This document shows, piece by piece, positions 2,121 through 15,200 of a stretch of 64,000 bases of DNA. Where the stretch lies: assembly GCF_006517175.1 (NCBI RefSeq), contig NZ_CP041186.1, forward strand, positions 1,515,001-1,579,000, read 5' to 3'. The notes under the pieces are model-generated. The model saw only the letters and a list, made by a program, of their open reading frames with translations. It was not told where the DNA came from and did no database searches. The position numbers and the translations under genes are program-made. Numbering within the stretch: the stretch's first letter is position 1; every line of letters starts with the position of its first letter. The DNA is from Persicimonas caeni. Lineage in GTDB: Bacteria; Myxococcota_A; Bradymonadia; Bradymonadales; Bradymonadaceae.

Positions 2121-4679
2121 TCAGTTCGTCGGCACGTAGACGCTGGCGCAGCTGGCGTCGGCCTTGAGCTGCCCGCAGTAGTCGGAGCATCCGTATCCGT
2201 CGCCCTGGGCGATTTCGATGTGGCCGTAGCGCGAGTGGAAGCCGCGGCAGCCGGGCGCCCAGGCGATGACGGCGCCTTTGGGCGCGTCTTGGACGGACAT
2301 GTCGACCTTACGCAAGCTCATCGTGTCGGCCAGGTCGGCCGCCGAGGCGCGGTCGGCGGCGCGCTTGAAGCCGGCCGCGGAGACCTGCACCGAGTAGCCG
2401 CTCATGCCGACGCGGGCGGCCAGCGCGTTGATGTCGGCGCGGGTGGCCAGGCCGGCGCGGATCATCGCCGCTTTGACGAAGGCCCAGCACTGGCCGGTGC
2501 TGTAGCCGCCGCGACCGTCGCTGCAACGCGGCCCGCCGGCGCCGTTGCCCACGCCCGAGCAGGTGCCGCCCTCGGTGCCGAGTTCGTCGGCCATCGCCGA
2601 GTTGGTGCCACCGCCCGAGCCCCCCTGGACCTCGATGGTGATCTGGTCGGTGGCCAGCACGTTGCCTCGGCTGTCGTAGCCGCGCACCTCGAGTTGGCGC
2701 ACGCCCATATTCTGGAACTCGTACTCGTGGGGGAAATTCGGCCCCTGCGTGGCCACGCCCAGCGAATAGTCGTCGGCGAAGTACTCGACCTCGGCGATGT
2801 CCTGAGAGGACTCGACCTCGAACTGGACCAGCGGCTCGTGAGTGCTGTTGGGCTGCGGCTTGACGAAGCGCACGAACGAGGGGCTGACCTGCACGGCGGC
2901 GTTGCCGCTCACCCCGCTGCTGACCACCTGCCAGTTCGAGCCGTCGGTGGAGATGGCGATCTCGGCGGTGCCGCTGGGAGCGCAGTCATTGAGGCCCACG
3001 TTGTAGTTGGCTTGGACCACGTGCAGCGTGTCGCCGGGGCGAAGGCCCTCGGAGAACTGCACGATGATGTGGCCGCCGTCCTGGATGCCCGCCACGGTGC
3101 TCGAGCGGTTGTCACAGCTCGTGTTGTCGGGTTGGCCGACCGCAGCGCCCGTATTGGTCGCGCCGCTCGAGCCGCCTACGCCTGCGGCCATGTGGGTGGT
3201 GCCGGCGCCGGCTCGCTCGTAGAAGACGCTGTCGAGCTCGAAGCCTTCCACGGTGTCGTTGGCCCCCAGCGGGTCGGGGCTGACGGCTTTGACGCGCACA
3301 TAGCGGAACTCGGGGGAGCCGGTGTTGCCGCCACCGCCGCCGGATTTCTCGTCGCACTCGGTCTCGGCCTCACCGTTGGCGTGGCGGATGATGCGCTCGA
3401 TCTGGGCGTACAGGTGGTTGCCCGGGCACGCCGTCGAGCCCTGGTCGCGGTGGCCTTTGACGTTGCTCGCGCTGGGGCTGATGCCGTAGCGGTCCGACAG
3501 ATGCCGGATGAGTTGGCCGGCCGAGGCGAGTTGCTCTTCGGTCGGCTGCAGCGACTGGTAGTTGCCCAAGAAGCTGATGCCAATATTGCCGGTGTTGTGC
3601 CCGCCGACGTGCGCGCCGCGCCTGTCGACCGGGTTGCCCTGGTAGATCCGCCCCTGCTGGTCGACCAAGTAGTGGTAGCCGATATCGGCCCAGCCGTTGG
3701 AGTCCATGTGATAGTTCTGGACCTGCTTGACGGTGCGCATGGGGTTGGTGTCGTTGTTCGACGTCACCGTGTGGTGAATCGTGAATCGATTGGGGCTGTG
3801 GCGCGGGCGGTTGTACCGAGGAGCGCGTGCGCCCCACTGGCTACGGGTGATGATGTCGGGCGCGGTCGTGGTGGTGTCGCAGGTCTGCGAGGCGCCGCCG
3901 CCGTCGTCTTCGTCGGGATCGAAGGTGCTGCCGCTATTGGACGGGTCGATGCTCGTCCCGGAGTCGACACACGAGCCCGGAAGCTGGGTGACACGGATAT
4001 CGTCGCCGTAGAAGAAGCGCAGGATGCGCTCGGCGTTCCAGCCGTTGTTGGCCAAACACGCCGCGCCGTTTTGGGACATCGCGCCGCGGTTGGCCGGGCT
4101 GCCGCTCCAGCCCAAGGAGCTGGGGCGCACGCCCGAGCCGATGCGGCCTTCGTTGTAGGTGACGTAGCGCTGGGTGCCCGAGCTTCCCGAGGCCCTGCAA
4201 CTGTTGGAGTCGACGTTCGTGGAGCCAGCGACGTAAAACGGCATGATCAGCTTGCCGTTGTGCGTCAGCACCATGCCCGAGGTCTCTCGGACCGCTTGCC
4301 GGGCGCGGTCGGTCGCCGGACGACCGCAGTTATAGGCCTGGTCGCGCACGGTCGGCGACACGGCGCGCTGCTCGACGTCGACCACGTACTTGGCATAGCC
4401 GCGAGCAGCGATGGCCTGCGCCTTGAGGGTCTCCATCGGAGCACCCTCGTGCTCACAAGTGACCACCTGAGCCAGGTATTCGTCTTCGACGCTCAGCGTA
4501 CCGTAGCCCTCGACCGGGACCTGGCAAAACTCGGTCAACTCGCCACGACGGGTCTCATATTCGGGCCCGTAATCTTCGAGCGGCTGATCGTCGTACATTC
4601 CGCAGCCACTGAGGACTACACCGACGATTAACAAAACCAGACATCGCAACCGAGCAGTCATCCGAGCCATCATCATCAT
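2121..4679 (-). CDS. Lipoprotein with SpoIID, PGRP-type amidase and CHAP-like domains
   Basis: 852 aa, signal peptide with lipobox LSGC (Cys about 26). Residues about 50-240 resemble SpoIID/LytB (EDEYLAQVV...LKAQAIAARGYAKY), a lytic transglycosylase-related family. Residues about 275-435 are an Amidase_2/PGRP domain: ITRSQWGARAP, FTIHHTVT, DIGYHYLVDQQGRIYQG and GHRDQGSTACPG carry the expected zinc ligands His, His and Cys, so it should cleave the MurNAc-L-Ala bond. A beta-sandwich-like region (about 455-690) follows. The C-terminus (about 705-852) looks CHAP-like, with GQCWAFVK (Cys about 731) and RYGHIEI (His about 818) as the Cys/His pair. The start is uncertain among four consecutive Met codons: GGGAG sits one base before the first, so a later Met is likelier. 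Three wall-acting modules in one lipoprotein suggest remodelling of its own or foreign peptidoglycan. Confidence 0.85.
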   Translation of the reverse strand: MMMMARMTARLRCLVLLIVGVVLSGCGMYDDQPLEDYGPEYETRRGELTEFCQVPVEGYGTLSVEDEYLAQVVTCEHEGAPMETLKAQAIAARGYAKYVVDVEQRAVSPTVRDQAYNCGRPATDRARQAVRETSGMVLTHNGKLIMPFYVAGSTNVDSNSCRASGSSGTQRYVTYNEGRIGSGVRPSSLGWSGSPANRGAMSQNGAACLANNGWNAERILRFFYGDDIRVTQLPGSCVDSGTSIDPSNSGSTFDPDEDDGGGASQTCDTTTTAPDIITRSQWGARAPRYNRPRHSPNRFTIHHTVTSNNDTNPMRTVKQVQNYHMDSNGWADIGYHYLVDQQGRIYQGNPVDRRGAHVGGHNTGNIGISFLGNYQSLQPTEEQLASAGQLIRHLSDRYGISPSASNVKGHRDQGSTACPGNHLYAQIERIIRHANGEAETECDEKSGGGGGNTGSPEFRYVRVKAVSPDPLGANDTVEGFELDSVFYERAGAGTTHMAAGVGGSSGATNTGAAVGQPDNTSCDNRSSTVAGIQDGGHIIVQFSEGLRPGDTLHVVQANYNVGLNDCAPSGTAEIAISTDGSNWQVVSSGVSGNAAVQVSPSFVRFVKPQPNSTHEPLVQFEVESSQDIAEVEYFADDYSLGVATQGPNFPHEYEFQNMGVRQLEVRGYDSRGNVLATDQITIEVQGGSGGGTNSAMADELGTEGGTCSGVGNGAGGPRCSDGRGGYSTGQCWAFVKAAMIRAGLATRADINALAARVGMSGYSVQVSAAGFKRAADRASAADLADTMSLRKVDMSVQDAPKGAVIAWAPGCRGFHSRYGHIEIAQGDGYGCSDYCGQLKADASCASVYVPTN

Positions 4680-5139
4680 GCTCCCGGCAAGGGGTTTGCT
4701 GACATGGAGTCAAAGGGTCCGTGTGCGAGTGGCGAAGTCTCGCCCCACGGCGCATCTCCTGCGTCTTCTCGTCCATGAAGAACAGCAAACAGTATGCCAC
4801 ACCGGAAATCCGTCTATCCACCAAGAAGAAACCAATCAACTAAGACACTGATTTAATTAACCTTTTCAACGCAGACCAACCAACCCGTGCTCAACCAACA
4901 CCTGTGACATCTTGTCACACCACGTGTGGTGATGGGGGTTTTTGTCCCCAATGCGCGCACACACACCTACACCCGACCACACACCCCATGGTTCGGGAGC
5001 ATCGCAGATGCCCACTGACAGGCGTCGAGGAGCAAAAAAACCACAGAAACCATTGCTATTACTGGATTTTTCGTTTATTCGTGTCCCCCCTGGAAATGAA
5101 GTTCCACTCTCGCCCAGACAGGGCGCGCCTCAGAGCAGT
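4680..5139. other. Divergent intergenic region
   Basis: 460 bases without a convincing gene, between the amidase (minus) and the unknown 523-aa gene (plus). It is AT-richer than its surroundings around 4780-4900 and 5030-5090 and should hold both promoters. Two adjoining dyads are listed separately. ORFs crossing it lack a ribosome binding site. Confidence 0.6.
4904..4931. promoter_or_regulatory. Two adjacent dyads, possible operator
   Basis: GTGACA-tct-TGTCAC (4904-4918) is followed directly by CACCAC-gt-GTGGTG (4918-4931). Such short perfect dyads in a divergent intergenic region fit a regulator site; no regulator gene is adjacent. Confidence 0.3.
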
Positions 5140-6711
5140 ATGAACCACACGGATCTTTGCCGTAGCCGTCGCATCCAGCGCTTCGTCGACTCTATCCCCG
5201 CGATGTTGGCCGGATGTGCTCACGCGCACCGCGAGTACACGGCGCGTCGCCCCTCGTTGGCCGATGGACTCGAAGACGCCGTCGAGTTGTGTGACGAGTC
5301 GGGGCGTGCGAGCGTCGAGCACTTGCGCAACCACTACGCCTACTGGGGACGAGACGAGCTGGCCGGTGATCGCAGCGAGTTTCGCGAGCGATTCAAGCGT
5401 GGCTTCGAGCGCACGGTGCTCGAAGTCTACGAAGCGTTTGCCGAGGCCCGGTTCGCCGCCTGGCGTTTCACCCCGGGTGGACTCGAGCACCCCGGCGTAG
5501 TCGAGGCGATGGACGGCCAATCGGAGGCGTCGCGCTTCGAAGTCGTGCACGCGACCACCAGCGAGTTGACGCCGCTACGCCACGAGGCATGCGTGGCCGG
5601 ATGGCTGGTCGAGGTCGAGGGGGTGAATATGCTGCTCTTGGCCTGCGAGTTGGAAGACCGCGCCCAGCAAAAGCTCGCCGTGGCGTGCACGCGCTCGGCT
5701 TGGGACGACGGGCAGTACTTTCGAAGCTGCGACTATGAGGCCGACGTCCTCGCCCTGCTCCTCGAGCCGCTATGTGTCGACGTGGGCGGTCACGGGGTGT
5801 GCATCGACCCGGAGCCACACAGGCTCAACGGCGGACGAATTTTCTTGAGCCCGGTCATCAAAGGCTGGGGTTGGGGGCTGGCGTCGATGAATCTGCCCGA
5901 CGCGGTCCAATCGCTGCTATGCGACGAGGGGTTGAGCCACCGCGGCGAGATGCTGCCATGGCACCTGGCGGTCGCGCGCGCCGAGACGACCCAGGACCTG
6001 CAAGATCTGACTCACCAGCTCGCCATCTTGCGCCAACACGCGCTCACACGCCGCCTCGAGCCGCGCCACCCCATCGGGGAGCACACGCTCGAGGCGTTGT
6101 TGTCGTCGTCGTTGCTCATGGAGACCGTCGGACTGACCTCCGACGGAGTGCTCGACGAACACGAGGCGTATCTCGAGTTGAGTCTGCGCCAAGTCGGCTT
6201 CGACTGCGAGGAGCTACATCAGTGCGGCGTCGACCGGGACGCGCCTCTCGACGAGGCGCTTCGGCACAGCGCCCGGTTGTCGCCCCGAGCGCTCGACCAA
6301 CTTGGAGACGCGATCTATTTGGCGCGTGTGAGAGTGCGTTGGACCACCATCTTGCGCTGCTGGCTCGCCGCCGACTCGCCGTGGCGACGCTCCCCGTCGC
6401 TCATCGATCTTTTGGCCGGCATCGACAGCCTCTTTCGCACCGAGTTGTGGAATGTGCCTGTGAGTCGGCTGCCCGATCCGGGCCAAGGCACCTGGAGCCG
6501 GCTCGAAAAGGCGATCCTCGACGTCGGGTTCACCGGCATCCGAGTACGCGTGGGCGACTTGTTCGAGTTTGGCGATATCCTGGCCGAACTCGACGGCGTC
6601 GGCCCCAAGACCCTCGAGCATGCAGCGCTCGCCTTGGCGCAGATTCTGATCGACTGGCCGTCGGGGCCGTGCTGGCTGGAGCCGAACGCAGGGGTGTCAC
6701 AGGCGTCCTGA
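5140..6711 (+). CDS. Conserved-looking hypothetical protein, C-terminal HhH-like motif
   Basis: 523 aa from the ATG at 5140; the frame stays open upstream to 4942 but that part is Pro/His-rich and unlike coding sequence. The ribosome binding site is weak. No signal peptide or membrane segment, so cytoplasmic. Rich in Leu/Glu/Arg and in Cys and Trp. Near the C-terminus (about residues 480-505) FGDILAELDGVGPKTLEHAALAL fits a single helix-hairpin-helix motif (core DGVGPKT), which in other proteins binds DNA or RNA backbone. The central part (KGWGWGLASMNLPDAVQSLL) is unrecognised. The gene is monocistronic, followed by the CBM48 gene 116 bases later. Confidence 0.75.
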   Translation: MNHTDLCRSRRIQRFVDSIPAMLAGCAHAHREYTARRPSLADGLEDAVELCDESGRASVEHLRNHYAYWGRDELAGDRSEFRERFKRGFERTVLEVYEAFAEARFAAWRFTPGGLEHPGVVEAMDGQSEASRFEVVHATTSELTPLRHEACVAGWLVEVEGVNMLLLACELEDRAQQKLAVACTRSAWDDGQYFRSCDYEADVLALLLEPLCVDVGGHGVCIDPEPHRLNGGRIFLSPVIKGWGWGLASMNLPDAVQSLLCDEGLSHRGEMLPWHLAVARAETTQDLQDLTHQLAILRQHALTRRLEPRHPIGEHTLEALLSSSLLMETVGLTSDGVLDEHEAYLELSLRQVGFDCEELHQCGVDRDAPLDEALRHSARLSPRALDQLGDAIYLARVRVRWTTILRCWLAADSPWRRSPSLIDLLAGIDSLFRTELWNVPVSRLPDPGQGTWSRLEKAILDVGFTGIRVRVGDLFEFGDILAELDGVGPKTLEHAALALAQILIDWPSGPCWLEPNAGVSQAS

Positions 6712-6827
6712 GATGCCTGCGGAGCGAGGCGAGGGGGTCGGGTTGCTTTTGAGGTGTTGACGCTTACCGTTCTTAAACGCAGCTAAAAGAATCAGCTAAC
6801 TCTCGCCCGCTGACATTGGGGAAAACG

Positions 6828-7133
6828 ATGATCAAAAAGCAGCGTCTCAAGAGCCGTCCTGTGTGCAAGGTCACCTTTGAAATACCGGCCGGAGAAGTCG
6901 AGGCCGATGAGGTGGAGTTGATGGGGGACTTCACCGACTGGGATCCGGTCCCTTTCAAGCAGCTCAAGAGCGGCAAATGGAAGGTCCAACAGGATGTCGA
7001 GCAGGGTGGACGCTACGAGTTCCGTTACCGAATCAAACGAGACGGCGAAGTGATCTACGACAATGATCCCGACGCCGACGGGTTCGTGCCTAACGAGTTT
7101 GGCACTGAAAACGGCGTCCTCGAATGTAAGTAG
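6828..7133 (+). CDS. Small CBM48 / isoamylase early-set domain protein
   Basis: 101 aa. Nearly the whole protein is one glycogen-binding type immunoglobulin-like domain: VELMGDFTDWDPVPFKQL matches the family's core (G-x-F-x-x-W), followed by GKWKVQQDV and GGRYEFRYRIKRDGEVIYDND-type strands. Start at ATG 6828 because GGGG lies seven bases upstream; a TTG at 6816 is in frame but overlaps that site. Stand-alone CBM48 proteins are usually cytoplasmic and bind glycogen or partner with glycogen enzymes. The maltodextrin locus 40 kb away gives a metabolic link, but no partner is adjacent. Confidence 0.85.
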   Translation: MIKKQRLKSRPVCKVTFEIPAGEVEADEVELMGDFTDWDPVPFKQLKSGKWKVQQDVEQGGRYEFRYRIKRDGEVIYDNDPDADGFVPNEFGTENGVLECK

Positions 7134-7150
7134 CACCTCCCGCACTGACG

Positions 7151-7184
7151 AGCCTGGGGCCGACACCACGCCAAGCCCCAGGCT
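7151..7184. terminator. Hairpin between convergent genes
   Basis: AGCCTGGGGC (7151-7160) pairs with GCCCCAGGCT (7175-7184) around a 14-base loop. It sits between the stop of the CBM48 gene and the stop of the convergent RudS-like gene. There is no U-tract on either side, so it may be a weak or factor-assisted terminator. Confidence 0.5.
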
Positions 7185-7219
7185 TCACGTCCCACGCCTG
7201 CATCGCAGGCGGCAGATCG

Positions 7220-8230
7220 CTAAAACTCCAATCCCTTCCCAGAATCGCGCATCGCGATCAGTTCGCGCGGGTATGGCTCCAAGTACGCCTGATCGGCCAA
7301 ATAATCGTACTCGAAGCGCGCGCACCACGAGCGCAACACGGTCAGCAGCGCATTCAGAGGTAGGTGATGGTTGCGATATTCTTCGAGCATATCGAGAAAC
7401 TCGTCACGCTCGGGGTCGGCCAACTTGTCTTTGAAATGACCGTACATGTGGGTGAGTGCGTTGACGTGCACGCCACGGCTAGGCTTCGACGACAGCGCGT
7501 TGCGGAAATGTGTGACGTACTTTTCGTACACCTCTTCGGGGCTCAACCCGTCTTCGTTCGCCACCAGCCGCCCGAGCACGCGCATCTCGGTCTCGTTATG
7601 GACGAGCAGGAGGTGCTTGTAGCGGCGCTGGAAGTCGATGAGCTTACCAAAGGTGGGCGAGTTACCGACCTCTCGAAGCTCGGCCAGCGAGAAGAGGCGC
7701 GTCAGGAAATGGTGGCGAATCGGGTAATTGCGAAGGCGTCCCTCGTCCTCGACGGCGAGCCCGTCGAATCGCTCGAGGACTTCACGTGCAAAGATGCCCG
7801 CCTCCCTGCGCACGCCCGGGGAGTTTTCGGGCGCAGCGTAGACCTTGACCTGACTGGTGCCACATGACGGCGAGCTATTCTTGAGCACGAACCCGTCGAC
7901 CTCGCCGACCTGGTCGAGAAACTGAGCAGCGAAGCTCTCCATCTTGTCGGTCAGATCGCGCCCGGTCGCCGGTTGGATCAAGCGGGTGCCGCCATCGCCA
8001 TCGTCGACCAGCCGAATCGTATCCCTGGGGATGCCCAACCCGATCGCAAATTCGGGACAAATCGGCACCACCTGCACGTAGCTGTAGAGCCGTCGAACGA
8101 ACGAATCGGCGATGCGCTGCCCGTCATGGCGACACTTTTCGAGTTCTAAACACGCGCTCATGACCACCTTCGGGGTCACGAAGTGTCGGCCGACCGTCGA
8201 GCTCGTCTCTTTCTTCTTTGCGGTGCTCAT
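7220..8230 (-). CDS. rudS: RudS-like tRNA 4-thiouridine desulfidase (DUF523 + DUF1722)
   Basis: 336 aa from ATG 8230, preceded by GGAGAATCG; an in-frame ATG nine codons earlier lacks a site. Residues about 20-160 are a DUF523/TudS domain: VVMSACLELEKCRHDGQ, VVPICPE and KNSSPSCG supply the three Cys (C27, C58, C123) that hold the [4Fe-4S] cluster in thiouracil desulfidases. Residues about 195-315 are DUF1722/YbgA (FQRRYKHLLLVHNE, HMYGHFKDKL, NHHLPLNALL). The TudS-DUF1722 fusion is the architecture reported for RudS, which removes sulfur from s4U in tRNA. Cytoplasmic. It lies on the same strand as the queuosine-salvage gene, but a strong terminator separates them. Function by family architecture, not tested. 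Confidence 0.85.
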   Translation of the reverse strand: MSTAKKKETSSTVGRHFVTPKVVMSACLELEKCRHDGQRIADSFVRRLYSYVQVVPICPEFAIGLGIPRDTIRLVDDGDGGTRLIQPATGRDLTDKMESFAAQFLDQVGEVDGFVLKNSSPSCGTSQVKVYAAPENSPGVRREAGIFAREVLERFDGLAVEDEGRLRNYPIRHHFLTRLFSLAELREVGNSPTFGKLIDFQRRYKHLLLVHNETEMRVLGRLVANEDGLSPEEVYEKYVTHFRNALSSKPSRGVHVNALTHMYGHFKDKLADPERDEFLDMLEEYRNHHLPLNALLTVLRSWCARFEYDYLADQAYLEPYPRELIAMRDSGKGLEF

Positions 8231-8383
8231 CGATTCTCCGAATGGGGAAGCCTTCACCTACTAAGATGCAACACAACCCGCACAGATTCACGCAACAGAA
8301 GACGTTTTGGCGAAAGACCGAGGCCATCAACACCAACGATGACGAGCCATTTCATGCAATATGCTCTCCTCATCCGCTCCCAC

Positions 8384-8417
8384 AAAAAAACCCGCCCGAC
8401 GCGAACGCCGGGCGGGT
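8384..8417 (-). terminator. Intrinsic terminator of the DUF2419 operon
   Basis: On the minus strand ACCCGCCCG (reverse complement of 8409-8417) pairs with 8390-8398 around a ten-base loop, then seven U (8384-8390). It follows the DUF2419 stop by about 70 bases, and ends that transcript before the RudS-like gene. Confidence 0.9.
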
Positions 8418-8490
8418 GGCGGGTTCCCATGCAGCGCCTCTCGCGCTGCACTCGCAAACGTAACCAAGCAGCGGCGAGGTCAAGCTGGCG

Positions 8491-9477
8491 TCAGTAATAC
8501 ACGGTGCGCGTATGGTGGCGCGGCTTCGTCTCGAAACGCGGGTCTTGGCCGAGGTGCCACAGGTAATTGTCGAGTTCGAAGGCCGTTACCGCTCGTCCTA
8601 GCGCGGTCAGCCGTTCCACGAGGAGTTCGACCACGTGGACGCCACACGCGCGAATCTCGACCTCCTCGGGGGAATTGGCTTCGAGCCTGTCGCCGCGGTC
8701 GATACGCTCGGCGAGCGTCTCGTCGTAGCGCAAGAGACCGTCGAGGCGCAGCACGTGCGGGACGAGGTTGTCGGCAAAGAGCGTCAGACCATCCAAGTCT
8801 GAAAACGCGCCCGGCCCCTCGCCGTCGAAGGCGAGCCATAGATCTGCGGCAAGGATCTGCGCACGCTTGTAAAAGGGCACCGTTGTGTCGTGGTAATCGG
8901 CGACGTCGCGGAAGAGCGGCATCTTACTGACGATGTCGACCAACGCCGAGGCGCGACCTCCGGCCGCCTCGACCACCGAGGCAAAGCGCCCGCCGAAGTC
9001 AGCCAAGACAAACCGTCCCAGATCTTCGAGCGCCTGGCTGAACAATCCCATCAACTCGGCAACCGCCTCGTTCGAGAGATTCTGGCCAAAGATCTCGGCG
9101 CAATCCTCGGGCGTCAACGCGATCAGGTCGCCTGCCGACACAGGTGCATTGGCCTCGAAAAAATCCCCGAGCGCGTGGGCCACCATAAAATAGCCCACGA
9201 GCCCGTTACGCGGTTCGAGCTCGGGGAAATACCCCGATCCAAAGTTGATGGAGTCGAGCGCGAGCACATAGGCCACAGTTTGCTCACCGTGGCCCAGATA
9301 ATGGTGCTCGGGCTCGATCACGGGGGAGTGCAGCTTGTCTACCGGCAGGCTGCGTGCGTATGCGTCGAGTTTGTCGCGTTCGATGTGCACACGCTCTGCG
9401 GCACCAGCCACACGCGCGCAGGCGGCGCGGATCTCCTCGAAGACCGCGCCGCCTGCCTCTCTGCGTTCGTCAGTCAT
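8491..9477 (-). CDS. Queuosine salvage N-glycosylase/hydrolase family (DUF2419)
   Basis: 328 aa, cytoplasmic. Family landmarks in order: YVLALDSINFGSGYFPE (family form is LDxLNFCFW-like), PLFRDVADYHDTTVPFYKRAQILA, LTLFADNLVPHVLRLDGLL, RCGDR-like ERIDRGDRLEANSPEEVEIRA, and C-terminal LDNYLWHLGQDPRF. These match the Qng1/C9orf64 family, which releases queuine from queuosine 5'-phosphate so the base can be put back into tRNA at position 34. The segment after INF differs from the usual aromatic form, so substrate preference could be altered. Starts seven bases after the stop of the TerB-like gene, so the two are co-transcribed; the terminator at 8384-8417 ends the unit. Confidence 0.82.
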   Translation of the reverse strand: MTDERREAGGAVFEEIRAACARVAGAAERVHIERDKLDAYARSLPVDKLHSPVIEPEHHYLGHGEQTVAYVLALDSINFGSGYFPELEPRNGLVGYFMVAHALGDFFEANAPVSAGDLIALTPEDCAEIFGQNLSNEAVAELMGLFSQALEDLGRFVLADFGGRFASVVEAAGGRASALVDIVSKMPLFRDVADYHDTTVPFYKRAQILAADLWLAFDGEGPGAFSDLDGLTLFADNLVPHVLRLDGLLRYDETLAERIDRGDRLEANSPEEVEIRACGVHVVELLVERLTALGRAVTAFELDNYLWHLGQDPRFETKPRHHTRTVYY

Positions 9478-9484
9478 TGCCAGG

Positions 9485-10072
9485 TCACACGATTCGCGAG
9501 GTGAAGGGGTTGGGATAGGAGCGCTTCTCGCGCACGTCGTTCCAGTGCTTGCCCTTCAGGATCGGCTTCTTACGCTTCTGACCCGACGCCGAGGCCTGCG
9601 ACTCTTCGTAGCTCTCCCAGACGGCGCGCACCACGTCGTCGACGGTGTCGTACTCGAAACCGAAGTGGTGGCCCGTGGCGTAGAGCAGCGCATGCTCGTT
9701 CTCGTCGGTACCGTCTTCGGTCAGCACGATCGCCAGCAGGCGAAGCACCGCCAGTTTATTCTCTTCATCGACGAATTTCTCGGTCACGCTCTCGATAAAG
9801 CCTTCGAAGCGCTCCGGATCTTCGAGCAGCGCCTCGAGTTCGTCGTGGGTCTGCGCCAGCAGGTGCTCCAAGCTCTCGCCGCTGAGGGCCGGCTGCACGA
9901 AAGGCAGCTTCTGCCACGTCTCGGCCAGCGCCTGCAGTTCGCCGGAGGTCAGCTTGCCGTCCAAGAACACACCGGCCAACAGCAACTTGAGGGTGGCGCG
10001 GGCCTGCGGCTGGGATAGTGACGCAACTCGGTGCCAGTTCGGATGCACATCGCGGTACTTTTCCAGTTCCAT
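9485..10072 (-). CDS. TerB-like all-helical protein
   Basis: 195 aa, ATG at 10072 with GGAG seven bases upstream. Predicted helical throughout; LKLLLAGVFLDGKLTSGELQALAETWQKL resembles the TerB fold with its short acidic loop between helices, and LAVLRLLAIVLTEDGTDENEH repeats the pattern. The last 40 residues are basic and Pro/Ser-rich. Ter-family proteins sit in membrane stress and processing complexes, but nothing here shows tellurite resistance. First gene of a two-gene operon with the queuosine-salvage gene; divergent from mnmD, with 181 bases between that must hold both promoters. Function unassigned. Confidence 0.65.
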   Translation of the reverse strand: MELEKYRDVHPNWHRVASLSQPQARATLKLLLAGVFLDGKLTSGELQALAETWQKLPFVQPALSGESLEHLLAQTHDELEALLEDPERFEGFIESVTEKFVDEENKLAVLRLLAIVLTEDGTDENEHALLYATGHHFGFEYDTVDDVVRAVWESYEESQASASGQKRKKPILKGKHWNDVREKRSYPNPFTSRIV

Positions 10073-10253
10073 TTCGTTACTCCATAGCTCGAGTCAACAA
10101 CCAAGGGTGATTTGGGTCGTCGTTAAAATAAACAGATCTTGGAGATGTCTAGTCAGTCACACTGTTGCGAATCGAGATGCGGTTGCTTTATGGAGTCAGA
10201 CCAACAAGATTAGCCGGGGGAGAGAAAGACTTATCAAGCATCACACACGACCC

Positions 10254-11000
10254 ATGAGTGACCACATCGACATCGTCGAAACCGCCGACGGCTCCAAGAC
10301 GCTGTACGACCGGCAAAAACAGGTCCACTACCGCAACATGGCTGGCGCGCAGACCGAGTCGCGTTACGTGTTTTTGGAGGGCTCCGGCCTCGTCCAGCGC
10401 CCTGCCCCGTGGCGGGTGCTCGAGCTGGGATTTGGCGCGGCGGTCAATTTCACCCAGACGGTCGCAGCCTTCGAAGCCCAACGCGCCGCCGGCGGCCGCC
10501 TCGAGTATCACGCCGTCGAGTACGCGCCGGTCTCCCCCGAGTTGCTCGACTTCCATGCAGGCGAAGCCGGTGACATGGCGCGCGCGGCGCTCGGCGAAGC
10601 TCGAGACACAGGCGAAGTCGCCACCGTCACCAGCACGGACGGCCTTCTGGAATTGCACGTGTACCCGGTAAAATGGGTCGACTTCGAGTCGCCCGGCCTC
10701 GACGCCCACGCCGTTTTCTACGACCCGTTCGGCCCGCGCAGCGAGCCGGACTCTTGGACGGTCGAGTGCTTCGAGAACGCGCGCCGCCACCTCGCGGCTG
10801 ACGGAGTGTTGGCGACGTATAGCGCGGCGACTCACGTCAAGCGCAAGCTCTTCGAGGCCGGCTTTTGCGTCGCCTCGGCGCCCGGCCCCGGACGCAAGCG
10901 CGAGGTAACCTTCGCCTCGCCGACGCGCGAAACGCTCGAAGGTCGAGACGGCTTCGAGATGCTCTCACGAGACAAGTACCTGGAGCAGGATCATGACTGA
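10254..11000 (+). CDS. mnmD: MnmD-like tRNA mnm5s2U34 methyltransferase (stand-alone)
   Basis: 248 aa. SAM-binding Rossmann motif LELGFGAAVNFTQT (about residues 60-73), then HAVEYAPVSPELLDFHAG, AVFYDPFGPRSEPDSW (the DPF catalytic-site motif of the family) and GVLATYSAATHVKRKLFEAGF. These match the N-terminal methyltransferase half of E. coli MnmC, which finishes mnm5s2U at tRNA position 34. Start at ATG 10254; no other in-frame start nearby, and the ribosome binding site is poor. Its 3' end overlaps the FAD partner gene by eight bases, so the two halves of MnmC are separate, translationally coupled proteins here. Confidence 0.88.
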   Translation: MSDHIDIVETADGSKTLYDRQKQVHYRNMAGAQTESRYVFLEGSGLVQRPAPWRVLELGFGAAVNFTQTVAAFEAQRAAGGRLEYHAVEYAPVSPELLDFHAGEAGDMARAALGEARDTGEVATVTSTDGLLELHVYPVKWVDFESPGLDAHAVFYDPFGPRSEPDSWTVECFENARRHLAADGVLATYSAATHVKRKLFEAGFCVASAPGPGRKREVTFASPTRETLEGRDGFEMLSRDKYLEQDHD

Positions 11001-12117
11001 GATTGCGATTATCGGCTCGGGCCTGGCCGGCCTGAGCCTCACCCAGAGCCTGCTCGATCGCGGCGTCGACGCCGAATCGATCACCGTCATCGACGCCGAC
11101 GACGACGAGCGCGCCTCCGACGTGCCGGGCATCTTGATGCACCCGTTTCCCGGCCGCTCGATGAAGCCCAAGCCAGGCCACATGGCCATAGCCCAGAAAA
11201 GCGTGGCATACCTGCGCAGGCTCGCCGACGAGATGGCCGACGGGGCGATTCTCGAACTTCCGATGGCGCGCCCGTTGATCGGTGAGATGGGCGAGCGGCT
11301 CCAGGCGAGTTGGGAAGAGGCGCGCGCGGAGTATCCCGAGTGGTTCGAGAGCCGACTGGTCGCCGGCGACGAACTCGCCGAGGTCGATCCGAACCTGGCT
11401 GCGTTCGACGAAGCGATCGTCTACCGCCCGGCGTTCTCGGTCGACACCAACGCGCTTCGGCGCCACCTGCGCGCCAAATTCACCCAGGCGGGCGTGCACC
11501 TGGTCGACCGGACGCCGGTGGAGCGTCTCGAACGCGCGGGCGATCGATGGAGACTCGTCACCGACGCCGAGCCAATCGAAGCCGACAAGGTCATCTTGGC
11601 GCTCGGCTTCGGCATCGCCGAGTGGTTCCCCGGCCTTCCCATTCACGGCCGTGGCGGCGAGGTCATGATCGTACGGCCTCCCGACGACGGCGAGCTTCGC
11701 TGCATCATCAACGCATCGGGCCACGTGGCGCCCAAGGGTGACGGCACCTGGTCAGCCGGCTCGACCTACTGGTCGCCCGAGGAGTTCGATGGGCGCACCG
11801 ACGAACTCGCAAAGACGCAACTCCTCGAGCGCTGCACGCGCCTCGTACCGGCGCTCGAAGGCGGCGAGCCGGTCTCCTACGGTCGCGGCATTCGCGCGAT
11901 GTATCGCGGCGACAACCGCCCCCTGGTGGGTGATGTGCCCGGCCTCCCCGACGCGTTCGTCTTCGGCGCATTCGGCTCCAAAGGCCTGTTGCGCATCCCC
12001 GCGCTGGCCGACCAACTCGCCGCCCATCTGTGCGACGCCGGCGAGATTGGCGAGCGCGCGAGCACTGCACGCGTCAAAACCGACAAGTGGACACCTGCAG
12101 CCGGCAAGCTCGGCTAG
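10993..12117 (+). CDS. mnmC: MnmC-like FAD oxidase (cmnm5U to nm5U), stand-alone
   Basis: 374 aa. N-terminal dinucleotide-binding motif IAIIGSGLAGLSLTQSLL (G-x-G-x-x-G), conserved GILMHPFPG, then DAO-type core and C-terminal YGRGIRAMYRGDNRPLVGDV and AFGSKGLLRIPALADQLA. This is the FAD-dependent demodification half of MnmC, removing the carboxymethyl group so that MnmD can methylate. Overlaps mnmD (ATGACTGA) and ends at the bidirectional terminator 12145-12180. Length fits the isolated MnmC(o) domain. High confidence in family; exact partner chemistry is inferred from the pair. Confidence 0.88.
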   Translation: MTEIAIIGSGLAGLSLTQSLLDRGVDAESITVIDADDDERASDVPGILMHPFPGRSMKPKPGHMAIAQKSVAYLRRLADEMADGAILELPMARPLIGEMGERLQASWEEARAEYPEWFESRLVAGDELAEVDPNLAAFDEAIVYRPAFSVDTNALRRHLRAKFTQAGVHLVDRTPVERLERAGDRWRLVTDAEPIEADKVILALGFGIAEWFPGLPIHGRGGEVMIVRPPDDGELRCIINASGHVAPKGDGTWSAGSTYWSPEEFDGRTDELAKTQLLERCTRLVPALEGGEPVSYGRGIRAMYRGDNRPLVGDVPGLPDAFVFGAFGSKGLLRIPALADQLAAHLCDAGEIGERASTARVKTDKWTPAAGKLG

Positions 12118-12144
12118 TTTCTGGTTCGACTCCCCCTCAAACGC

Positions 12145-12180
12145 AAAAAAGCCCGCCGGCTCACACCGGCGGGCTTTTTT
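12145..12180. terminator. Bidirectional intrinsic terminator
   Basis: A6, then GCCCGCCGG (12151-12159), six-base loop, CCGGCGGGC (12166-12174), then T6. It works for the mnm operon on the plus strand and for the last of the four lipoprotein genes on the minus strand. Confidence 0.95.
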
Positions 12181-12247
12181 GTCGGTTCTTTGGGCTCGGC
12201 TGCGAGCGCGAACGCTCGCAGCCGAATCCGTCACCTTGTCGTCAGGT

Positions 12248-15200
12248 TTACTGACAGACCAGGGTCAAGCCCCACTCGTTCAACGTACCCTCGTCGTCTC
12301 CTTCGGAGCTGCTCGGGTAGGAGAACCAGTCGTACTCGTCGAAGATCGTCAGCGTCCAGGTGCCGTCGCCGGTCAGGCCGCTGAAGGTGGCCAGGTCGCC
12401 GACGGGCGTCTTCTCCGCCGGGTACCATCCCGTGACGAAGTCGTCGCTGTCGAGGCCGGTGTACTCCTCGAGGAGCACCGAGGTGGTGCCGTCGGGTGCC
12501 GTCAAGGTGATGGTGAGGTCACCGAGCTGGCTGTGGGTGATGTCGACGAACGCCTCTACGGAGCTGACCGTGGCGCAGTTGGTCACGCTGACGGTGTCCG
12601 AGACGCTGGTGGTCTCGTCGTTGGGGATGGCCAAGGCCGGCGTGCTGCCGAAGTCGGGCGGGGGCAGCGGCGTCTGAAGCTCGATCGTCAGGTCGAACGA
12701 CGACGGGGTGTCATCGCCTTCGACGGCGACCAGATACTCGCCTGCCGAGGTGTACGGACGGAAGAGCGTGATACCGCCGGTGGCGGTCTCGTTGACCAGC
12801 GAGGTGTACGCCTTGTCGAAGATGCGAAGGTCGATGTCCTCGCTGTTGCCCGAGGTGCCCGTGATCGACAGGTTGCCGTCTTCGCTGAAGCTAGCCAGGT
12901 AGTACAGACGCTGGTTTTCGAGCAGAGCCGGACCGGTGACGGTCTGGCTGTTGCCCTGGGCGAAGGGGCCCAGCGCTTGCGGCGTGTAGAGGTTGATCGA
13001 GATCACCTCGTTGCTCACGCCGTCTTTGCCTTCGATCTCGAGTTCGAAGCTGCCACCCGCGTCGGTGTAGTAGTAGATGTACTCGGGGTTCGAGTACGAC
13101 AGCGGGTAGAAGGACGACTCGTTGTCGAGCGAGGTGCCGTTGGCGTCGAACAGCTCGAAGTCGTGGTCATCGGAGCTATCGTTTTCATGATAGATCTCGA
13201 TGATCTGACCCGCCGGCACCTGGAATTGCAGCGTCAGCGGCTGATTGTCTCCAAAGGTGGCCATGGAGTGCGTGGTGGTCTGGTCGGCCGGAAGCACGCC
13301 CAGGTCGACCACGCGCGGCGAGCCGTTGAGCGTGACGTCGTAGCCGGTGACCGCTTCGTCGGCTTCGATGCGCACCATGAAAGTTTCGGCCGTGGTGATG
13401 CCGCCACCAACGCTAACTGCGCCGCCCGAGCCGGTCTCACCGACAATCTGGCTGCTGCTGCTGTCGTAGATGTAGAAGTCGACGTCCTCGCCGGCGGCGG
13501 GGACGACCTGGCCGCTGAACACCGTCGGTCCGGTGGTCGTGAACGTGTGGAAGCCACTCTGGCCGTCGGCGATCGCGCCGCCGGTGATGCTCAGGCTGGC
13601 GGTCTCGTCGAGCGTGCCCATATCACTCGGCGTGATGCTGTGCAGCGTCACGGCCAAGTTGGTCATATCCGTGGTCGCGGCCACTTCGAGGGTGAAGGTG
13701 GTCTCAGTTTTGACCCAGTACCACTCGAAGTCGTAGTTGTCGTAACCGCTGTCGTTGGTCACGTCGACGAAGGTGTCGCTCATGACCTCGGTGCCCGTCG
13801 AGTCGATCAGATCGAAGTCGATCTCTTCGTCGGCGTCATTGGTCTGACTGATGGCGAACACCTCGCCGGCGGCGACCGTGAAGGTGTAGATGGCCTTCTG
13901 GTCTTCAGCCAGGGAGCTGACCGCGCTGGTGGGGGTCTGGGTGTTCGTGGGCAGCAGGCCGAGAGCTTCGTAGTTACGGCTGTTGGCGGTGATGACCTGG
14001 TCGGTCGCGTCGCCGTTGTCCGTCACGATGCGCGCCAGGAAGCTACTGCTGCTACCGGCGGTGCGAGCGTAGACGAACTCACCGCTGGTCGACGAGGCCG
14101 CGTAGAAGTACGTGTCGCTGTCGACCACCTCACCGGTGATGTCGAACAATTCGATCTCGACGGCGTCAGACTCGGCGTTGTCGTGGAGCACCTCGAGGAG
14201 TTCGTCGGCGTTGAGCGACATGCTGTAGTAGCGTACGTCGTCCTCGAGCATGTTGACGGGGGTCGACGAGACGCTGCCGCCGGTGGGAACCTGCCCCAGA
14301 TCGGTCGGCGAGCTGATGTTGACGCCCAAGGTGGCGTCGACCGAGCTGCCCGAGTTGTTGGTCAGCGTGAGCACGTAATCGCCGCCGGTGTTGAAGGCGA
14401 TGTGCTCGAAGAGCTCGCCGTCGTCGAGGGTGGTCGTGGCCACCTCGGTGCCGTTGGGATCGGTGATCGACAGGTCGAGCGATTCAGCAGCCGCGTTGGT
14501 CTGGTTGATCTCGAGCAGGTCGAACAGGCCGGCCGACACGGTCATCGTGCCGGTACCGCCGGCAGGAACCGTGACCGTCTGCTGGGCGCCAGTGACCTCG
14601 GCGCTGATGTCGAAGTCCACTCGCGGACCGTCGACCATCGTCCAATCGACCAGCGCCAGCATCGAGCCACTCTCGGGCACACCGACGGTGACCGACTGAC
14701 CGGCCGAAATCGGCTGAGACTCGTGCAGCGTCGTCGCGTCGCCCCACACTTGCAGGACGCCCTGGGCGTCTTCGCCGATGCCGTCGACCGTAAAGGTGAC
14801 CACATCGGTGGGCGCGATATTGGCCATGTTGAACAGGTTGTCGTGCAGGTCGGTCAGCTCACCGGTGAGCTGGACGCTGCCGCCGGAGATGTCCTGGTCG
14901 CTCGCGGTGCCGCCACTGACGGCTTTGAGCGTGCCCACATAACCCCAGTCGTCCGATCCACTCGGGCCGACTTCCTCGCTCGTCAGGTTGAGCGCCGGGA
15001 GCACGGTCACCGTGTAGGTGCCGTCTGCCGGGATGACCAGGTCACGCGCGGTCGCCGCGCCGCTGGTCACCGGACTCCAACGCATGTACTCGCCGTTGGG
15101 GCCTTCGACCACAAAGGCGGGCGCGGGCAGTCCGGTCGATTGGACCATCAGCTCGAACCAGTCGCCTGCGGTGGCGTCGAATTCGAAGACGTCGACGTCT

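Follow-up and report, generated by a model that had tools for sequence, protein, structure and literature searches.

Neighbouring tRNA-modification genes in Persicimonas caeni: most probably three independent transcription units, one with a putative queuine-releasing enzyme

Introduction

Genes of families that act on 4-thiouridine (s4U), on queuosine at position 34 (Q34) and on the modified wobble uridine of transfer RNA (tRNA) lie within 5 kb of each other, on two strands, in the genome of the bacterium Persicimonas caeni. Do they form a tRNA-modification island, or has gene order made them neighbours by accident? We addressed this question in a stretch of 64,000 nucleotides, hereafter the window, which covers positions 1515001-1579000 of a single contig of 8,047,206 bases. 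An initial annotation had proposed a shared theme for five genes at positions 7220-12117, namely rudS, qng1 (DUF2419), a TerB-like gene, mnmD and an mnmC1-like gene. All five were present at these positions. We consider it most probable, however, that they represent three independent transcription units that became neighbours by chance. This reading is based on the protein identities observed with profiles, on gene order and hairpins, on the lack of conserved linkage and on the conservation of the mnmD-mnmC1 pair; all activities named below are those expected from the respective families.

Gene identities and transcription units

The family names RudS, DUF2419 (Qng1) and MnmD given by the annotation were right, and the three proteins all passed their family cut-offs. 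RudS (7220-8230, minus strand; 336 residues) carries a TudS desulfidase domain fused to DUF1722 in one chain, matching the 2-thiouracil desulfurase profile PF04463 with 117.1 bits (cut-off 34.7; E 8.1e-34) and PF08349 with 128.8 bits (cut-off 22.5; E 1.5e-37). The listed frame (7220-8257) opens at GTG 8257, but translation more likely begins at the in-frame ATG at 8230. Qng1 (8491-9477, minus strand; 328 residues), by family a queuine-releasing nucleotidase, scored 212.1 bits against PF10343 (cut-off 25) over positions 2-285 of the 285 of the profile, hence over its full length. Like the solved Qng1/DUF2419 proteins (PDB 7u07, 7uk3 and others), with which it aligns over residues 20-328, it includes the C-terminal TRTxxY end. 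MnmD (10254-11000, plus strand; 248 residues), an MnmC2-type tRNA methyltransferase without oxidase domain, reached 137.7 bits with NF033855 (cut-off 136). The remaining two genes encode a TerB-like, all-helical protein (9485-10072, minus strand; 195 residues) and an MnmC1-like FAD oxidoreductase with DAO fold (10993-12117, plus strand; 374 residues).

The TerB-like gene precedes qng1 on the same strand at a distance of 7 bp and is separated from the divergent mnmD by a gap of 181 bp (10073-10253), whereas the reading frames of mnmD and mnmC1 overlap by 8 bp. A terminator-like hairpin with a 12-pair stem, 10 of the pairs being G-C, and a T run was found 3' of qng1 (8390-8417, minus strand), as a match to the consensus only. 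Since this hairpin (8417-8390) stands between qng1 and rudS, rudS falls outside the operon of the TerB-like gene and qng1. A second one, with a 17-pair stem followed by a T run, lies 3' of mnmC1 (12143-12182, plus strand). From hairpins and spacing we infer three transcription units: rudS, terB-like-qng1 and mnmD-mnmC1. No sigma70-like promoter was found in 6700-12400 by a scan that is uninformative for this organism, and no RNA element of Rfam matched in 4700-12400.

Conservation of the gene group

The comparison set comprised 76 genomes, the own genome included, 21 of which (G000-G020) belong to the family of the window. Qng1 was detected in 8 of the 76, DUF1722 in 22 and MnmD in 19. Eight other genomes (G003, G011, G012, G014, G017, G020, G066 and G070) hold at least two of the three, and in none of them do two share a contig. 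The same picture emerged from the qng1 side: at 80 further Qng1 loci taken from wider genome contigs (1.11 Mb in all, up to 10 kb of flank) and at the 7 Qng1 loci of relatives, tblastn at E ≤ 1e-2 detected no RudS, MnmD, MnmC1 or TerB. Five fetched RudS regions contained no believable partner either, the sole other match being MnmD at E 0.005, antisense over RudS itself. A conserved tRNA-modification island was rejected, as linkage was missing from the relatives' genomes, the Qng1 loci and the RudS regions alike. The annotation itself had stated that neighbours varying freely in relatives would make the grouping chance; with 0 of 8 genomes and 0 of 87 Qng1 loci linked, this is what was found, and its shared theme did not stand.

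In a quick tree, the Qng1 of the window clustered with those of G017, G020 and G003 (Shimodaira-Hasegawa-like approximate likelihood ratio test, SH-aLRT, 84-85). Because of this grouping, Qng1 is probably a long-standing component of the family, in changing company: genes for an ATP-binding cassette (ABC) transporter and FtsX accompany it in G017 and G020, and a SWIB gene lies nearby in G003. The absence of linkage in relatives and these changing neighbours around the family's Qng1 are the reasons why the grouping is best read as chance. In a simulation that assumed 30-60 tRNA-modification units among 3000-6000 transcription units, 0.05-6.7% of genomes had a stretch of 3-4 consecutive units with three of them in it. 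This is uncommon for one genome and unremarkable for a theme that was chosen in a large scan with the genes already in view.

Several observations weigh against a chance origin. The simulated frequency does make the grouping uncommon for a random genome. Our genome is the sole representative of its genus, so that the comparison begins with other genera. Several relatives are fragmented drafts, and the short flanks in G012, G014 and G017 weaken the linkage test there and thereby the absence from one contig. In G015, mnmC1 shares a contig with a TerB-like gene (26% identity, E 1e-7) at a distance of about 5.4 kb, and a single contig of G003 carries TerB and MnmD 29 kb apart.

A rival reading is a recent island specific to the genus, co-regulated for example under stress or light. 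Four tRNA-acting genes within 5 kb would fit such an arrangement, and the comparison set includes no second genome of the genus. The terminator-like hairpin between qng1 and rudS, the missing linkage in the other genera of the family and the absence of light or repair genes among the other immediate neighbours (a CBM48 protein, a 589-residue protein without Pfam match and a large secreted-type protein) nevertheless make it improbable. We retain the three independent units. As a cluster they matter little, beyond showing that genes may share both a theme and a place in the genome although the arrangement is not conserved; each gene is of a known kind, and the theme is unsupported beyond the mnmD-mnmC1 pair.

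The TerB-like protein

The annotation had further suggested that the TerB-like gene, for its position next to both mnmD and qng1, might be a missing part of the theme. The position was confirmed; the name was not, as PF05099 gave 16.7 bits, below its cut-off of 24.4, and the designation TerB is weak for this reason. A single-sequence structure model was all-helical with a mean predicted local distance difference test (pLDDT) score of 69.9, and a Foldseek search with it returned 2h5n as best match at E 0.14, hence no clear solved relative. Homologues were found in 15 of the 76 genomes (own included). The two best ones, in G006 (41% identity) and G003 (36%), sit among unrelated genes: leucine-rich repeat (LRR) and thrombospondin-type genes in the former, glutathione S-transferase (GST), ArsR-rhodanese and DsbD genes in the latter. 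Two further paralogues are present in the own genome (C1:529870-530433, 25% identity, and C1:7109626-7110021, 23%).

That the protein is an accessory factor of Qng1 in queuine salvage, or of a wobble-base theme, is very improbable: the 7-bp spacing on the same strand makes co-transcription with qng1 probable, but no TerB homologue was detectable at any of the 87 other Qng1 loci (remote ones may be missed in this fast-diverging family), G006 carries the TerB-like gene without Qng1, and the two closest homologues keep the unrelated company just described. On this gene context, and with the caveat of fast divergence, membership in the theme was rejected. The operon with a TerB-like gene thus distinguishes the qng1 of the window from the 87 other loci, and the protein would be an unrelated or function-unknown passenger of this unit.

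The MnmD-MnmC1 pair

The one pair of the group that is conserved is mnmD-mnmC1, which constitutes a real split-MnmC unit. In 11 of the 15 fetched MnmD regions, MnmC1 follows MnmD immediately (18 other genomes have an MnmD match; three were not fetched). It is 2.8 kb downstream in one of the remaining regions, convergent and weak in another, and was not found in two. MnmD matches stand-alone (3vyw, MNMC2) and fused MnmC2 structures and resembles, with its score over the MnmC2 cut-off, the stand-alone, Aquifex-type DUF752 enzymes represented by 3vyw. As in the MnmC of E. coli (3awi, 3ps9), an MnmC1-like partner is present, here encoded downstream of MnmD. Unlike in that fused enzyme, however, the two halves are encoded separately in the window, by overlapping genes, and the oxidase half scores below the family cut-off. 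By family, the pair would convert 5-carboxymethylaminomethyl-uridine, with or without the 2-thio group (cmnm5(s2)U34), first to the 5-aminomethyl form (nm5; MnmC1) and then to the 5-methylaminomethyl form (mnm5; MnmD).

The annotation of a split MnmD/MnmC pair was therefore sound as to the unit and less so as to the oxidase. The MnmC1 model TIGR03197 gave only 90.5 bits (cut-off 174.2), the ThiO model came second at 82.7 bits, and among solved structures the glycine oxidase 4ysh (E 3.2e-6) came ahead of MnmC 3awi (E 4.9e-6). These scores would suit a glycine- or amino-acid-oxidase-type enzyme that is not a true MnmC1. We regard this as unlikely, given that MnmC1 is nevertheless the highest-scoring NCBIfam model, that adjacency to MnmD is kept in 11 of the 15 regions and that the two frames overlap in the window. 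MnmC1 is an acceptable name for a protein that acts like MnmC1 by context, and formal membership in the family is not claimed.

RudS

RudS shares its two-domain fusion with the TudS-DUF1722 tRNA s4U desulfidases (PMC11417400), of which RudS_vir from phage 1H12 has been tested experimentally and the roles of catalytic and contact residues have been defined (PMC11417400). In an alignment with RudS_vir and TudS, in which RudS_KT was not included, the protein of the window keeps the three cysteines of the [4Fe-4S] cluster, the glutamate of Cys-Pro-Glu, the two serines of SPSCG and the arginine of PR, that is, the catalytic Glu, Ser, Ser and Arg. The Ser-Arg pair of DUF1722 is also kept, whereas the tRNA-contact Arg is followed by His-Asp in place of Tyr-Asn. 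Overall identity to the tested phage enzyme is 36.6%. The s4U substrate is expected in the same cell because ThiI of the own genome passes its cut-off (TIGR00342, 284.4 bits against 264.5). RudS, standing alone, would by family remove the sulfur from s4U8 of tRNA. In a further difference from the known system, it is not part of a light-responsive operon, as judged by its immediate neighbours.

In G011 (L187:5480-8874), rudS lies 39 bp upstream of, and on the same strand as, a gene for a glutaminyl-tRNA synthetase fused to a GatB/YqeY domain. As to a prophage or viral origin of the gene group, a PHROGs search with three proteins matched RudS to a family of unknown function that also occurs in phages; the other two had no match.

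Queuosine salvage and a second transglycosylase

Qng1/DUF2419 releases queuine from queuosine-5'-monophosphate (PMC11130926), and the protein of the window would, by family, split this compound into queuine and ribose phosphate. Its working partners are probably located elsewhere in the genome. QueC was over cut-off in 15 of the 76 genomes and in none of the 21 of the family, most of which nonetheless keep a tRNA-guanine transglycosylase (TGT) and QueG or QueA. QueA and QueG are present in the own genome together with two TGTs over cut-off, and one of these TGTs may insert the freed queuine. Lacking QueC, the family could not make preQ0 de novo and would have to scavenge queuosine precursors. 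A transporter of the QPTR/YhhQ type was not found in the own genome, and the QPTR family occurs in 1 of the 21 family genomes. Bradymonadales have been characterized as predators that rely on contact with their prey and have many auxotrophies (PMC7460792); the word queuosine does not occur in the passages of this Bradymonabacteria genome paper (PMC7460792) that were consulted. The gene content points, short of proof, to polyauxotrophic predators that salvage queuine. What may make the family worth attention is that such predators, apparently unable to make preQ0, keep TGTs, QueA/QueG and sometimes Qng1.

The first TGT of the own genome is found in the usual queA-tgt-yajC-secDF order. The second, Tgt2 (G000:C1:6559735-6560817; L183:5535-6884, minus strand), stands alone without queA, and no transporter was present among the 10 neighbouring proteins scanned. 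It reads PSRYARSG/PTRxARSG where PTRNARNG is usual. Of 23 TGTs placed in a tree, the ten that have no queA next to them formed one clade (SH-aLRT 99), which includes TGTs of six other Qng1-bearing genomes (G003, G017, G020, G061, G064 and G070); 7 of the 8 Qng1-bearing genomes examined have a TGT of this clade. Two TGTs over cut-off occurred in 30 of 61 QueC-negative but in 0 of 15 QueC-positive genomes (Fisher p 2.3e-4, kinship ignored), while 7 of 8 Qng1-positive genomes had either two TGTs or only Tgt2, against 24 of 68 Qng1-negative ones (p 0.0067, kinship ignored). Within the family of the window, second TGTs are common both with and without Qng1.

Our judgement is evenly balanced on whether Tgt2 is a mere preQ1-type paralogue, Qng1 then recycling or degrading the cell's own queuosine nucleotides. 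Queuine-type TGTs have been reported with a GG[LS][AS]G pocket (PMC11570991), and the roles of Val233 and Cys158 in the TGT pocket have been described (PMC3660597). Tgt2 sequences read GGLSVG or GGVSVG and thus keep the valine of the preQ1 type; G003 has GGLSVG. At the Cys158 position, on the other hand, the Tgt2 of G017 and G020 do have a valine. A mere paralogue would, however, hardly explain the distribution of second TGTs over QueC-negative genomes, even with kinship ignored, nor G003, which keeps only Tgt2 and Qng1 and, with QueA, QueG and QueC not found, has no known route left from preQ1 to queuosine.

We tentatively put forward, at a lower probability, that Qng1 feeds queuine from prey or own tRNA to Tgt2, which would insert it despite its preQ1-type valine. 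Q34 would then be reached in parallel from preQ1, through Tgt1-QueA-QueG, and from queuine, through Qng1-Tgt2, and both routes would depend wholly on scavenged precursors. The TGT of Bartonella, with a similar motif discrepancy, is reported to accept preQ1 and, if its concentration is high, also queuine (PMC11570991). That Tgt2 inserts queuine is thus possible, if unproven. G003 (93% complete; L012, L192) should be a queuine salvager with a preQ1-type pocket, as judged by its gene content; QueA and QueG are missing from its congener G015 as well, though that genome is 87% complete. With a queA-unlinked TGT as its only one and Qng1 beside it, G003 makes queuine use by a preQ1-type pocket directly testable.

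Where would queuosine-5'-monophosphate come from? In many other Myxococcota, unlike in the window, the gene for a kinase of the diacylglycerol kinase (DAGK)/YegS type immediately precedes qng1 and in most cases overlaps it by 4 bases (L010:6236-7171, L015:1247-2185, L163:9093-10022 and others). YegS_C was found in 10 of 47 same-strand upstream neighbours of qng1, any other family in at most 2. By direct comparison, the kinase abuts qng1 in 12 of the 80 loci; in 3 more, from Acidobacteriota, a homologue is located some 3.4 kb downstream. Within the set of 76 genomes, the kinase has its closest homologues in G061, G066 and G070, all of which have the kinase-qng1 pair. Common descent alone could keep the pair together, since the Qng1 proteins paired with the kinase fall into a single clade (SH-aLRT 97) and the region around them is partly syntenic. 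As a guess, the kinase might be a queuosine kinase that supplies queuosine-5'-monophosphate to Qng1, and this operon would then offer a candidate for the phosphorylation of queuosine; the term "queuosine kinase" was not mentioned in the literature searched, where one study, on Salmonella and E. coli, contains both YegS and queuosine.

Other neighbouring genes

At lower positions than the group, the window encodes on its plus strand a 105-residue protein (6816-7133) with a CBM48/glycogen-binding-type domain standing alone, with no enzyme attached, and a 589-residue open frame (4942-6711) that matched neither Pfam nor NCBIfam. On the minus strand (2121-4679), an 852-residue protein combines SpoIID with N-acetylmuramoyl-L-alanine amidase in a single chain, besides a weak match to CHAP, and is possibly a secreted cell-wall attacker.

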